From NCBI RefSeq assembly GCF_031458325.1, contig NZ_JAVDYG010000001.1:310001-374000 (forward strand): a stretch of 64,000 nt of DNA, in the 5' to 3' direction. The stretch is from Nocardioides marmoribigeumensis (GTDB lineage: Bacteria > Actinomycetota > Actinomycetes > Propionibacteriales > Nocardioidaceae). The notes under the pieces were generated by a model, which saw only the letters and a list, made by a program, of their open reading frames with translations, was not told the origin of the DNA and ran no database searches. Of the stretch, positions 22,504 through 25,720 are shown piece after piece; the stretch's first letter is position 1; the number at the start of each line of letters is the position of its first letter. Both the position numbers and the translations under genes were made by a program.

Positions 22504-23958
22504 ATGACGCTCACCGCTCCCCCGACCGGCTCGGCGCCCCCGGCGCCGCGCGCGCCCAAGCCGCCCCGCGAGGAGGACCCCCGCAACCCGGTCCACCGCC
22601 TCCCCGCGCTCCTCGACGAGGGGTCGCTGACCTTCCTCGGACCGGACACGCTGTCCGGCATGCGTGCCGCCACCGGCACGATCGACGGCCAGCCGGTCGT
22701 CGCCTTCTGCTCCGACGTCACCGTGATGGGCGGCGCGATGGGCGTCGACGGCTGCCGCGTGGTCGTCGAGGCCTACGAGCGGGCCGTCGCGGACGGCGTC
22801 CCGATCATCGGCCTGTGGCACTCCGGCGGCGCGCGTCTGCCCGAGGGGGTCCGCTCGCTGCACGCCGTGGGCGAGATCTTCCACGCGATGACGCTCGCCT
22901 CGGGTCGCATCCCGCAGATCTCGGTGGTGCTCGGCCCGGCCGCCGGCGGCGCGGCGTACGGTCCCGCCCTCACCGACGTGGTGATCCTCGGCCCCGAGGG
23001 CCGCATCTTCGTCACCGGACCCGACGTCGTGCGCTCGGTCACCGGCGAGGACGTCGACATGGCGCGCCTCGGCGGACCTGAGCCGCACGGCCGCCGCTCG
23101 GGCGTCGTCCACCTGCTCGTCGACTCCGAGGAGGAGGCGCTGGCCCAGGCCCGCGACCTCGCCTCGCTCCTCGGCGACCAGGGCGAGATGGACCTGCAGG
23201 CCGTGGCCGACCGCGACCTGTCCCAGGCCCTGCCCGACAACCCCAAGCGCGCCTACGACGTCCACCCGCTGGTCGAGCAGGTGCTCGACGAGGGCACCGC
23301 ACGCGAGCTTCACGGTCGTTGGGCCCCCAACGTCGTCACCGCGCTGGGCCGCCTCGGTGGCCGCACCGTCGGCGTCGTGGCCAACAACCCCCTGCGCCTC
23401 GGCGGCTGCCTCGACAGCTTCTCGGCGGAGAAGGCAGCCCGCTTCGTGCGCATGTGCGACGCGTTCGGGGTGCCGCTCGTCGTGCTGGTCGACGTACCCG
23501 GCTACCTGCCCGGCGTCGGTCAGGAGTGGGACGGCGTCGTACGACGGGGCGCGAAGCTGCTGCACGCGTTCAGCGAGTGCACGGTGCCGCGGGTGACGCT
23601 GGTGACCCGCAAGGCCTACGGCGGTGCCTACATCGCGATGAACGCCCGCGCCCTGGGGGCGACCCGCGTCTACGCGTGGCCCGGCGCGCAGGTCGCCGTC
23701 ATGGGCTCGGTCGCCGCGATCCGCATCCTGCACCGGCGCCGGCTGGCGGAGGTCCCGCCGGACCTGCGCGAGCAGACCGAGCAGGAGCTGGCCGACGAGC
23801 ACGACAAGATCGCCGGGGGCGTCGAGGCCGCGATCGAGCTCGGCGTCGTCGACGAGATCGTCGACCCCGCGGTCACCCGCTCCTCGATCGCCGGTGCGAT
23901 CGTCGAGGCGCTCCGGGCCGGGCCCGTCCGCGGGCGCCACGGCAACATCCCGCTGTAG
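22504..23958 (+). CDS. accD: Acyl-CoA carboxylase carboxyltransferase subunit (AccD type)
   Basis: A 484-residue carboxyltransferase beta-type subunit. It moves CO2 from carboxybiotin to acetyl- or propionyl-CoA, producing malonyl-CoA for FabD. Both crotonase-like halves are present: the N-terminal lobe with GLWHSGGARLPEGV and GPAAGGAAYGPALTD, and the C-terminal lobe with VDVPGYLPGVGQEWDGVVRRG and TRKAYGGAYIAMN. The glycine pairs that form the two oxyanion holes are intact. The ATG at 22504 follows GGAGACCCC. By position it corresponds to accD6 of mycobacteria, the last gene of the FAS-II operon. Its biotin-carrying partner is not in the window. A strong hairpin with a T run follows at 23995-24037. 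Confidence 0.94.
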   Translation: MTLTAPPTGSAPPAPRAPKPPREEDPRNPVHRLPALLDEGSLTFLGPDTLSGMRAATGTIDGQPVVAFCSDVTVMGGAMGVDGCRVVVEAYERAVADGVPIIGLWHSGGARLPEGVRSLHAVGEIFHAMTLASGRIPQISVVLGPAAGGAAYGPALTDVVILGPEGRIFVTGPDVVRSVTGEDVDMARLGGPEPHGRRSGVVHLLVDSEEEALAQARDLASLLGDQGEMDLQAVADRDLSQALPDNPKRAYDVHPLVEQVLDEGTARELHGRWAPNVVTALGRLGGRTVGVVANNPLRLGGCLDSFSAEKAARFVRMCDAFGVPLVVLVDVPGYLPGVGQEWDGVVRRGAKLLHAFSECTVPRVTLVTRKAYGGAYIAMNARALGATRVYAWPGAQVAVMGSVAAIRILHRRRLAEVPPDLREQTEQELADEHDKIAGGVEAAIELGVVDEIVDPAVTRSSIAGAIVEALRAGPVRGRHGNIPL

Positions 23959-23959
23959 C

Positions 23960-24046
23960 CGCTGGGTGCGGTTTCACTAGGTACCTAGTGACCTTGGTGC
24001 TCCCCGAGCGAAACTTCGCTCGGGGAGCACCAGTTTTCCCGCAGGT
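23960..24046 (+). repeat. Left copy of the 87-bp inverted repeat bracketing the DUF559 gene
   Basis: Starts two bases after the accD stop. It holds, in order, a GGTGCGGTTTC box, the perfect 18-bp palindrome TCACTAGGTACCTAGTGA (23974-23991), and a 17-bp perfect hairpin stem (23995-24011 with 24016-24032) with a four-base AACT loop, followed by GTTTT. The right copy (25121-25207) is inverted and about 85% identical. The three stem positions that differ (GTG here, TCA there) are compensated on the other arm. On the plus strand it also reads as a good intrinsic terminator for accD. Confidence 0.9.
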
Positions 24047-24062
24047 ACGACGGGACGCCGGC

Positions 24063-25010
24063 TCAGGCCGCGGCGCGACGCATCGCGCGCCGGATCCGAG
24101 CGACGAGCTGGGCCGGGTCGGCCAGGTCGGCCCACGTCACCCGGATCACGATCCATCCGGTGGCCTCGCGGATCCGGTCCTCTCGCTTCTTCTCCCGGAC
24201 GACGGCGTCGGCGGCCGACTCGCCCGGCCGCAGGTGCTTCTCGTACTTCACCTTGCCGTCGAACTCCAGGATCACGCCCAGCTCGGGCCAGGCGAAGTCC
24301 ACGATGCCGAGGAGCACCCCGCCCTCCCACACCTCGTACTGCGGATCGGGCCGAGGGAGGTTGGCCCGCCAGAGCAGGTGAGCGGTGCGGTCCTCGCCCA
24401 CCGAGGCGTGCCGGGCGTCGGCGAGGCTCACGACGACCTGCAGGCCGAGGCTGTCCGGCCAGTGCTCGGTGGCGGCCCGTCGTTCTTCGACCTCCTCGAT
24501 CCCGCACAGGCCGAGCCGCAGGACCGAGTCGACGGTCACCAGTCCCTGCTCGACACTCAGCAGTGAGGCCGACTCCACCGCGGCGCGTGCCGGCCCGACG
24601 ACGGGCAGCCCGCGGATGACCTGGATCTCCGATGCCGGGAGCGCACCCTGGTGGTGGATCAGGTCGCCGGCGTGGCGGCCGTGCTTGCCGTCGGCACGCG
24701 TGAGGTGGACCTCACCGAGCCCGACCTTCCACAGGTCGAGCCCGTGCAGGACGGCAGCCGTGTGGTGGCTGAAGGCGATCCGCTCGCCGTGGGTGCGGTG
24801 GATCGCCCGGGCCGTGACCACGTGGCGCTCCCGCTGGTCCGCGGTCGCCCAGAGCTCGCCCGCGACGTACGCCCCGTGGCGCACCTTGACCAGCTCCCCG
24901 GACCGCACGGCCCGCTTCAGTGCCGCGTCGGACATCCCGGAGGCGATCGCCTCGCGCCGCAGGAAGATCGGGATCTCGTCGGTCTCGGGGTGGTCGAACG
25001 TCATCTTCAT
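24063..25010 (-). CDS. AbiEi-like winged-helix / DUF559 (PD-(D/E)XK-type nuclease) protein
   Basis: A 315-residue two-part protein. The N-terminus (about 12-75: IFLRREAIASGMSDAALKRA, then GELVKVRHGAYV) is the winged-helix domain found in AbiEi-type antitoxins and related regulators. The C-terminus (about 215-310) is a DUF559-like Vsr/PD-(D/E)XK nuclease fold: the motif residues appear in GIVDFAWPELGVILEFDGK, with Asp, Glu and Lys in metal-binding positions, then basic helices (REKKREDRIREATGW). Many actinobacterial genomes carry several such genes; function is not known. The ATG at 25010 was taken as start, and a second ATG lies two codons later. The gene is enclosed by the two inverted repeats and lies where related genomes have accD next to DUF3145. 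Confidence 0.8.
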   Translation of the reverse strand: MKMTFDHPETDEIPIFLRREAIASGMSDAALKRAVRSGELVKVRHGAYVAGELWATADQRERHVVTARAIHRTHGERIAFSHHTAAVLHGLDLWKVGLGEVHLTRADGKHGRHAGDLIHHQGALPASEIQVIRGLPVVGPARAAVESASLLSVEQGLVTVDSVLRLGLCGIEEVEERRAATEHWPDSLGLQVVVSLADARHASVGEDRTAHLLWRANLPRPDPQYEVWEGGVLLGIVDFAWPELGVILEFDGKVKYEKHLRPGESAADAVVREKKREDRIREATGWIVIRVTWADLADPAQLVARIRRAMRRAAA

Positions 25011-25120
25011 GGGCGGGAGCCTGCAGCGTTCCTGCCCCGCCGTCGTACGGCGCGGCGCCACCGGTGGAGCGAGAGGGAGTCTCCTGACCTGGGGACCGGA
25101 ACCGGCTCCGCCGCCCTCGG

Positions 25121-25207
25121 ACCGCGGCAGAACTGTCACTCCCCGAGCGAAGTTTCACTCGGGGAGTGACAACGTCACTAGGTACCTAGTGAAACTGCAC
25201 CCCAGCG
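25121..25207 (-). repeat. Right copy of the 87-bp inverted repeat bracketing the DUF559 gene
   Basis: Inverted relative to the left copy. It has the identical 18-bp palindrome at 25175-25192 and the hairpin at 25134-25171, with one mismatch in the stem. The outer edge is three bases from the stop of the DUF3145 gene. Relative to the left copy, stem changes occur in complementary pairs, so the hairpin shape rather than the exact sequence has been kept. No T run follows it on the minus strand. Confidence 0.9.
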
Positions 25208-25210
25208 CCG

Positions 25211-25720
25211 TCAGACGACCTGGTGGAGCCAGCGGACGGGGGCACCGTCACCGGCGTGACGGAACGTCTCCAGCTCGTCGTCCCACGGCTTGCCGAGGAG
25301 GCGGTCGACCTCGACCTCGAGGGTGGTCTCGCCCAGGGCCGACTTGACCATCGCCGCCTTGAGGCGGTCCTCGGGGATCATCAGGTCGCCGTGCATCCCC
25401 GTCACGGCGTGGAAGACCCCGAGCGCGGGGGTGGAGGAGAAGCGGGCACCCTCCGCGCCGGGTGAGGCGTCCTCGGTGACCTCGAAGCGCAGGTGGTTCC
25501 AGCCGCGCAGGGCGGAGGTCATGGCGGCGGCCGTGCCGGCGTCGCCGAGCCAGGAGTACTCCGCCCGGTAGGTGCCTGCCTGGGCGGGCTGGGGGGTCCA
25601 CTCCAGGCTGACGGCATGGTTGAGCACCCCGCCGAGCGCCCACTCGATGTGGGGGCACAGCGCGGACGGCGCCGAGTGGACGTAGATGACGCCCCTGGTC
25701 GCAGGACGTGAGCTCATCAT
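25211..25720 (-). CDS. DUF3145 family protein
   Basis: A 169-residue protein of the actinobacterial DUF3145 family. Family phrases include GVIYVHSAPSALCPHIEWAL, YSWLGDAGTAAAMTSALRGW, MHGDLMIPEDRL and ELETFRHAGDGAPVRWLHQVV at the C-terminus. Function is unknown. In Streptomyces it lies just beyond the fatty-acid operon, so its position near accD is conserved apart from the inserted DUF559 unit. The start is the first of two adjacent ATGs (25720); AGGGAGG lies about five bases upstream. An inverted repeat at 25842-25856 sits in its upstream region. Confidence 0.9.
   Translation of the reverse strand: MMSSRPATRGVIYVHSAPSALCPHIEWALGGVLNHAVSLEWTPQPAQAGTYRAEYSWLGDAGTAAAMTSALRGWNHLRFEVTEDASPGAEGARFSSTPALGVFHAVTGMHGDLMIPEDRLKAAMVKSALGETTLEVEVDRLLGKPWDDELETFRHAGDGAPVRWLHQVV

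Follow-up and report, generated by a model that had tools for sequence, protein, structure and literature searches.

The window analysed here, 64,000 nucleotides of the Nocardioides marmoribigeumensis genome, contains a cassette of ~1.25 kb in which a gene for a 315-aa protein is enclosed by inverted repeats, each made of an outer 18-bp palindrome (P) and an inner hairpin (H). We consider it likely that a selfish repeat element similar to the REP/RAYT systems, but with an unrelated enzyme, is present here in its gene-bearing copy. On balance we also favour a wider reading, namely that a new class of mobile element exists in many actinobacteria: a homing-endonuclease-like enzyme with an antitoxin-type DNA-binding domain would replace the transposase, each lineage would have its own enzyme–palindrome pair, and gene-less P-H units would spread in trans and take the place of terminators. 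No description of such a nuclease–palindrome pairing was found in openly licensed PubMed Central papers. We infer that the protein binds P and cuts DNA, and that the element has spread and moved. An earlier note on this DNA had suggested a mobile or selfish cassette, and the dispersal of the repeat, the framing of related genes and a site that differs between congeners all support that suggestion.

Architecture of the cassette and its protein

The cassette has the order P-H, gene, H-P and, as the earlier note stated, it fills the gap between the stop codons of accD on the plus strand (23956-23958) and of the DUF3145 gene on the minus strand (25211-25213). An inverted-arm search delimited two terminal arms of 79 nt that are 86% complementary: a left terminal inverted repeat on the plus strand (23964..24042), comprising P, H and an inner segment, and a right one on the minus strand (25124..25202). 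In the left arm, P (TCACTAGGTACCTAGTGA; 23974..23991), the proposed binding site of the encoded protein, is followed by H on the plus strand (23995..24032), an 18-bp stem with a 2-nt loop in which all 18 pairs are formed (100% paired). The right arm holds a second copy of H on the minus strand (25134..25171; 94% paired) and a second P identical to the first (25175..25192), and P is present both upstream and downstream of the nuclease gene (24063..25010, minus strand; its start codon is one picked among several candidates). The inverted copies with an identical 18-bp palindrome and a long hairpin, as described earlier, are confirmed by these features. The accompanying claim that three stem pairs differ between the two hairpins and are all compensated needs amending: three are indeed compensated on both sides, but four pairs differ, and the fourth has changed on one side only to give a G-U.

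The encoded protein is predicted to join an AbiEi-type DNA-binding half to an EDxHD/Vsr-like nuclease domain. An AlphaFold2 model based on 96 homologues (pLDDT 93.5) resembles the AbiEi antitoxin 6y8q over residues 1-198 (Z 10.4, 178 residues, rmsd 6.5) and the catalytic domain of I-Bth0305I, 3r3p, over residues 199-315 (Z 10.0, 97 of 97 residues, rmsd 2.2), and the predicted nuclease half also aligns with Vsr (1vsr; Z 7.2, 104 residues, rmsd 3.9). A likeness to TnsA (1f1z; Z 4.1) was too weak to claim. Residues E206, D238, E249, D251 and K255 are conserved without exception among the 96 homologues; from the motifs of the family we take them to be active-site positions. The sole Pfam match of the window protein is AbiEi_4 (E 9e-10), a family matched in 76 of the 96 homologues, and PADLOC models of AbiEi match the N-terminal half. 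The earlier note had called the gene a DUF559 nuclease with an AbiEi-like winged helix. Of this, the AbiEi likeness stands and is joined by a Vsr-like predicted fold, but the DUF559 profile (PF04480) does not match the window protein and reaches E ≤0.01 in two of the 96 homologues. The five Pfam families matched by the 96 members include no transposase family, NCBIfam and PHROGs gave no recognised transposase family for the three proteins searched, and a search of solved structures by sequence returned one irrelevant match (E 0.32).

Six homologue pairs show purifying selection, with dN/dS of 0.11-0.21; the value for the window protein against its homologue in the congener G002, a more distant pair, is 0.46. 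The homologue alignment (A3; 96 rows) leaves out a locus with an in-frame stop (L162), duplicates, and truncated or frameshifted loci, and its rows are a different set from the 96 loci whose flanks are considered below.

Framing repeats, dispersed copies and site history

Homologues were detected at E ≤1e-30 in 144 of the 197 genomes of the family (Nocardioidaceae), and a protein profile, with no more than six candidates scored per genome, finds members at E ≤1e-25 in 209 of the 345 genomes of the class. Inverted repeats (score ≥20) frame 85 of the 96 unique homologue loci with full 700-bp flanks, which are what is left of 109 loci after removal of five duplicates and eight with incomplete flanks. 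By comparison, none of 1359 control intervals of equal size elsewhere in the loci is framed, these intervals being taken from the longer loci only, on an overlapping grid with 100-bp steps. Left and right flanks drawn from different loci reach score 20 in 35 of 2000 cases, which we attribute to the sharing of palindromes between relatives. A smaller first run at score 25, in which the interval grid missed the cassette in L107, gave 26 of 30 loci, 25 of 870 mismatched flanks and 0 of 603 intervals. Eleven of the 96 loci lack framing repeats within 700 bp, and two of these gain them with 1300-bp flanks. Among 24 further loci (30 minus six duplicates), 23 are framed, L277 being the only exception, and outside Nocardioidaceae 9 of 10 are; without the two truncated loci (L276 and L279, both framed) the counts for full flanks are 21 of 22 and 7 of 8, respectively. 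Framed cassettes usually measure 1.1-1.3 kb end to end, with outliers at 1.36, 1.50 and 1.76-1.83 kb.

The repeats themselves are diverse. A clear palindrome is missing from 21 of the 83 framed loci of alignment A3, and 73 of 170 repeat arms have no hairpin above threshold. A third segment repeating the right arm of H (8-of-9 match) was found in 24 of the 97 arms with a scored hairpin, against 5.5% (106/1940) of swapped controls; being enriched and not universal, it was dropped as a general feature.

The five palindromes tested are each dispersed in the genomes whose nuclease gene carries them and are rare or absent elsewhere. For four of them, taken from framing repeats and searched across whole genomes with two or three mismatches allowed, TCGCTACACGTGTAGCGA has 27 sites in G017, 24 in G070 and 0 in 20 others; AATCCCCGGTCGACCGGGGATT has 13 in G190 and 0-3 in 21 others; GACTCCCCGCTCGAGCGGGGAGTC has 28 in G140, 16 in G102, 11 in G192 and 0 in 13 others; and GAGTTTCTCCGCCCAGGCGGAGAAACTC has 24 in G178 and 0 in 15 others. 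The common variant in G070, and likewise that in G140, differs by two positions from the palindrome that was searched. A spacing of 61-62 bp within pairs is found for palindromes of unrelated sequence (six pairs in G017 and one in G190), and is also seen in the window's genome (G000; 4.44 Mb) and in G002. Palindrome half-site similarity correlates with protein identity (rho 0.49, permutation p 0.001) over 62 loci, that is, the 85 framed loci minus two absent from A3 and 21 without a clear palindrome, a correlation that co-inheritance alone could produce. At some sites the palindromes differ despite homologous genes on both sides (for example L141 versus L146, and L076 versus L093), from which we conclude that palindrome and protein changed together in place. 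The association of the repeat with this type of nuclease, on which the earlier cassette idea depended, is thus upheld both by the framing of homologue loci and by the lineage specificity of the repeats.

The repeat is not confined to the accD–DUF3145 site. At ≤3 mismatches P has 62 sites in G000, against one for a reversed control, and its 16-bp core at ≤1 mismatch has 60 sites in G000, 59 in G002 and none in the 56 other genomes searched. In the regions of G000 and G002 that were read, which contain P sites among the matches listed, we counted at least 21 intergenic P-H-P units (80 bp; 62 bp from P to P) in the former and at least nine in the latter, together with at least four and at least seven pairs of inverted half units, respectively, lying 193 to 1463 bp apart; the remaining copies in these regions are single half units or lone P. 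For site comparison, 30 G000 regions were set against 24 from G002. The question whether each repeat pair encloses a nuclease gene has a mixed answer, in that one inverted pair in G000 is known to enclose a gene of the window type but the others are gene-less or hold other genes, the latter arrangement occurring twice over G000 and G002. These two composites surround a class-I methyltransferase gene (L055:2000-3061) and a sigma-factor gene with a DUF6281-like gene (L034:2040-3503), which may be cargo.

Sorted by gap type, the copies are distributed 39:34:5 over convergent, tandem and divergent gaps (n=78), against 35:117:41 for control gaps (n=193), as counted in three genomes with a simple gene caller; five more copies fall inside roughly predicted genes. 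The edge of the unit is sharp in G002, where the terminal TG is 97-100% conserved and the next base outside 50%. By eye, no obvious target-site duplication was seen in the flanks of the G002 units, and no common tag of the GTAG/CGTC type in the flanks of G000 and G002 copies. When 68 copies (64 distinct) from the two genomes were aligned, H contained 73 cells with two-sided change, where shuffles gave 37.9 and none of 500 reached the observed figure; the number of H pairs with such change was not unusual (8 against 7.2 in shuffles, 188 of 500 as high). Across copies, compensatory changes have preserved the structure of H, in line with the earlier proposal that the fold has been selected. P is conserved in sequence across the same 68 copies, with zero two-sided changes. 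A conserved P alongside a covarying H is as expected if P is a protein site and H is kept as structure.

Comparison of congeners (G001-G004) gives some insight into how occupancy changes. The G002 homologue, 64% identical to the window protein, has the window's repeat around it but sits at another locus. At this locus G003 has a gene of its own with a different repeat, G000 has a gene-less P-H pair 301 bp apart, and G001 has an unaligned gap of 54 bp; one orthologous site is empty, gene-less or gene-bearing depending on the congener. Elsewhere, a P-H-P unit of G000 (C1:3957690-3957769) is absent in G001, G003 and G004, where 41-73 bp of other sequence lie between the aligned genes, in G003 forming a GC-rich hairpin. 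In the same place G002 has ~1.6 kb of different sequence in which neither P nor H occurs, so that G002 does not bear on the empty state. As to accD and DUF3145 as neighbours in relatives, an accD-like end, recognised by its C-terminal motif only, was found within the DNA fetched at 14 of 30 DUF3145 loci (the window's own included). Six of these 14 have gaps of 47-248 bp, too short for a cassette; the other eight have gaps of 689-1417 bp, among them the window's own 1252 bp.

Among homologue pairs with ≥75% identity, 22 of 23 have a flanking gene in common, which indicates that gene copies mostly descend in place and that movement is slow or rare; over longer times, the data support gain, loss or relocation. 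No exact empty/filled pair, and no clean insertion with a target duplication, could be aligned at the congener sites compared because the intergenic sequences are too diverged. An apparent insertion of the methyltransferase gene into a P-H-P site (L043 versus L055) was dropped, the similar gene on the left lying ~1.4 kb from P in L043 and adjoining P in L055. Carriage on plasmids (two weak matches among 72,556 records) and a phage origin (no PHROGs match for three proteins) were likewise set aside.

Possible mechanism, related systems and alternative explanations

How might such an element work? The AbiEi-type half probably binds P, and the Vsr/EDxHD-type nuclease half probably nicks or cuts there. 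A break at P, or at a cruciform formed by extrusion of H, would set off copying of the element. Homing-like repair of the break with another copy as template is the most likely route, transposition the other. Repair from another copy would spread P-H units, or the gene along with them, and gene-less units would spread in trans; the copies, most of which are found downstream of genes, may in addition have assumed the role of transcription terminators. Binding, cutting and repair of this kind would explain the conserved P, the structured H, the exchangeable interiors and the near-identical palindromes within each genome. Because both ends retain an intact P, as a classical homing site would not, self-cleavage would have to be limited.

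The enzymes linked to REP palindromes are the RAYT tyrosine transposases. Work on REP/BIME sequences with RAYT (TnpA-REP), including TIRtrons, describes short palindromes present in tens of copies, which often occur in pairs, lie for the most part downstream of genes and are often species-specific (PMC3733652). The P units share with the systems described there the dispersal of extragenic palindromes, often paired and downstream of genes, and the framing of one protein gene by the same repeats. The differences are that the enzyme here is predicted to be an AbiEi plus Vsr/EDxHD-type nuclease and not a tyrosine (HUH Y1) transposase, and that in the window the hairpin is separate from P and follows it, P itself being a perfect duplex palindrome. 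Lacking a tyrosine transposase, the element is not a member of the REP/RAYT group, and the best reading is that it works like one with a different enzyme. The predicted C-terminal fold is that of I-Bth0305I and Vsr. I-Bth0305I, an EDxHD enzyme, is described as dimerising on a target of nearly 60 bp (PMC3943268), a length comparable to the 61-62 bp between paired palindromes here. The window protein differs from these enzymes in its DNA-binding half, in an intergenic site and in the retention, on either side of the gene, of the palindromes that it is proposed to recognise. Should P be the site, the gene would not be a classical homing gene. The N-terminal 198 residues are predicted to share their fold with the AbiEi antitoxins of AbiE type IV toxin-antitoxin systems and with Rv2827c. 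Such antitoxins bind inverted repeats (PMC7319586). The window protein differs in being joined to a nuclease domain and in having dispersed repeats; moreover, its neighbours are accD and DUF3145 and no AbiEii-type (DUF1814) toxin gene adjoins it, so it is not one half of an AbiE toxin-antitoxin pair. The element resembles MITEs and insertion sequences in its terminal inverted repeats, in gene-less units sharing those ends and in the sharp edge in G002, but no known transposase family was matched and no target duplication was seen by eye.

One alternative, which we regard as unlikely, makes the protein a resident factor in regulation, chromosome organisation or defence. P would then be an operator for autoregulation, as in AbiE, the dispersed copies would be a regulon or domesticated sites, the nuclease domain would serve another purpose, and the element would be immobile now. 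The inverted repeats that AbiEi-type proteins bind lie in the promoters of their own genes (PMC7319586), and P does lie upstream of the nuclease gene; the purifying selection, the flanking gene common to nearly all close homologue pairs and the PADLOC match of the N-terminal half to AbiEi models would also suit a resident factor. However, P lies downstream of the gene too, the repeats include a covarying H that an operator does not need, and copies are found mostly downstream of genes, divergent gaps accounting for 5 of 78 copies but for 41 of 193 controls. Site occupancy that varies between congeners, and invariant putative nuclease residues, also argue against a regulator and for a selfish element.

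We think it distinctly unlikely that another transposase moves the cassette and the small units in trans, with the nuclease as cargo in the way that the methyltransferase and sigma-factor genes may be. DDE elements typically carry terminal inverted repeats such as those seen here, two composites do enclose other genes, and an unrelated hydrolase-like gene is flanked by two units of a second repeat family (see below). A foreign transposase would not by itself account for the different repeats that frame this nuclease family in many lineages, for the separate distant homologue that has its own repeat, or for palindrome similarity that tracks the nuclease. That the repeats are ordinary bidirectional terminators bordering the gene by chance, a rival the earlier note had raised in similar form, seems scarcely credible. 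The copies are mainly in convergent (39/78) or tandem (34/78) gaps, as terminators might be, and where G000 has one of its P-H-P units three congeners have 41-73 bp of different sequence, in G003 a GC-rich hairpin; yet a consensus scan found no T-tailed terminator, no Rfam family was matched (which also removes a known RNA family from consideration), the 18-bp P is conserved as sequence, frames are found at 85 of 96 nuclease loci but in none of the 1359 control intervals, and each lineage has palindromes of its own that go with its nuclease. On the framing statistics and the lineage specificity we rejected terminators as the sole explanation, which is strongly disfavoured.

With this nuclease family, a second, unrelated enzyme type is seen paired with REP-like repeats, in many lineages and with its own repeat in each. 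This also offers a role for solitary AbiEi-like genes without a toxin. If the protein acts on its own palindrome, these loci would provide dozens of natural enzyme-site pairs from which recognition rules might be read, would represent a new kind of selfish DNA, and would possibly explain lineage-specific palindromes behind genes in high-GC actinobacteria.

A second nuclease–repeat pair and atypical cassettes

A distant homologue of the window protein is encoded elsewhere in G000 (C1:1678370-1678972; L017:1501-2103), with 30% identity over residues 108-314. This second gene is framed by inverted repeats of its own (70 nt), and the framed unit measures 1191 bp from end to end. The repeat family has 38 matches in G000, which we counted as 19 places because most units match both strands, and it has no match in G001-G003. 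Two of its units lie 1.2 kb apart around the hydrolase-like gene mentioned above (L286; G000:C1:910600-913300). The possibility that this pair (G000:C1:911299-912595) encloses a further nuclease homologue was ruled out, the enclosed gene not being homologous. A second homologue in G017 is likewise framed by another repeat (score 80.5).

Some loci depart from the usual arrangement in the form of their repeats, their size or the state of the gene. At L152, L162, L168, L172, L175 and L187 the outer repeat is not a perfect palindrome and contains AAGGTATGCAG or close variants. Outside Nocardioidaceae, the framing repeats of L275, L276, L278, L280, L281, L283 and L285 share a TGATCA-containing motif, AATGATCACGT or close variants, and are not of the Nocardioidaceae types. 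Homologues with an in-frame stop, possibly decaying copies, were found at L162, G198:C9:5193-6089 and G203:C2:2254795-2255694. Finally, the cassettes at L169, L170 and L173 are larger (~1.8 kb), with ~570 bp between the gene and the downstream repeat.
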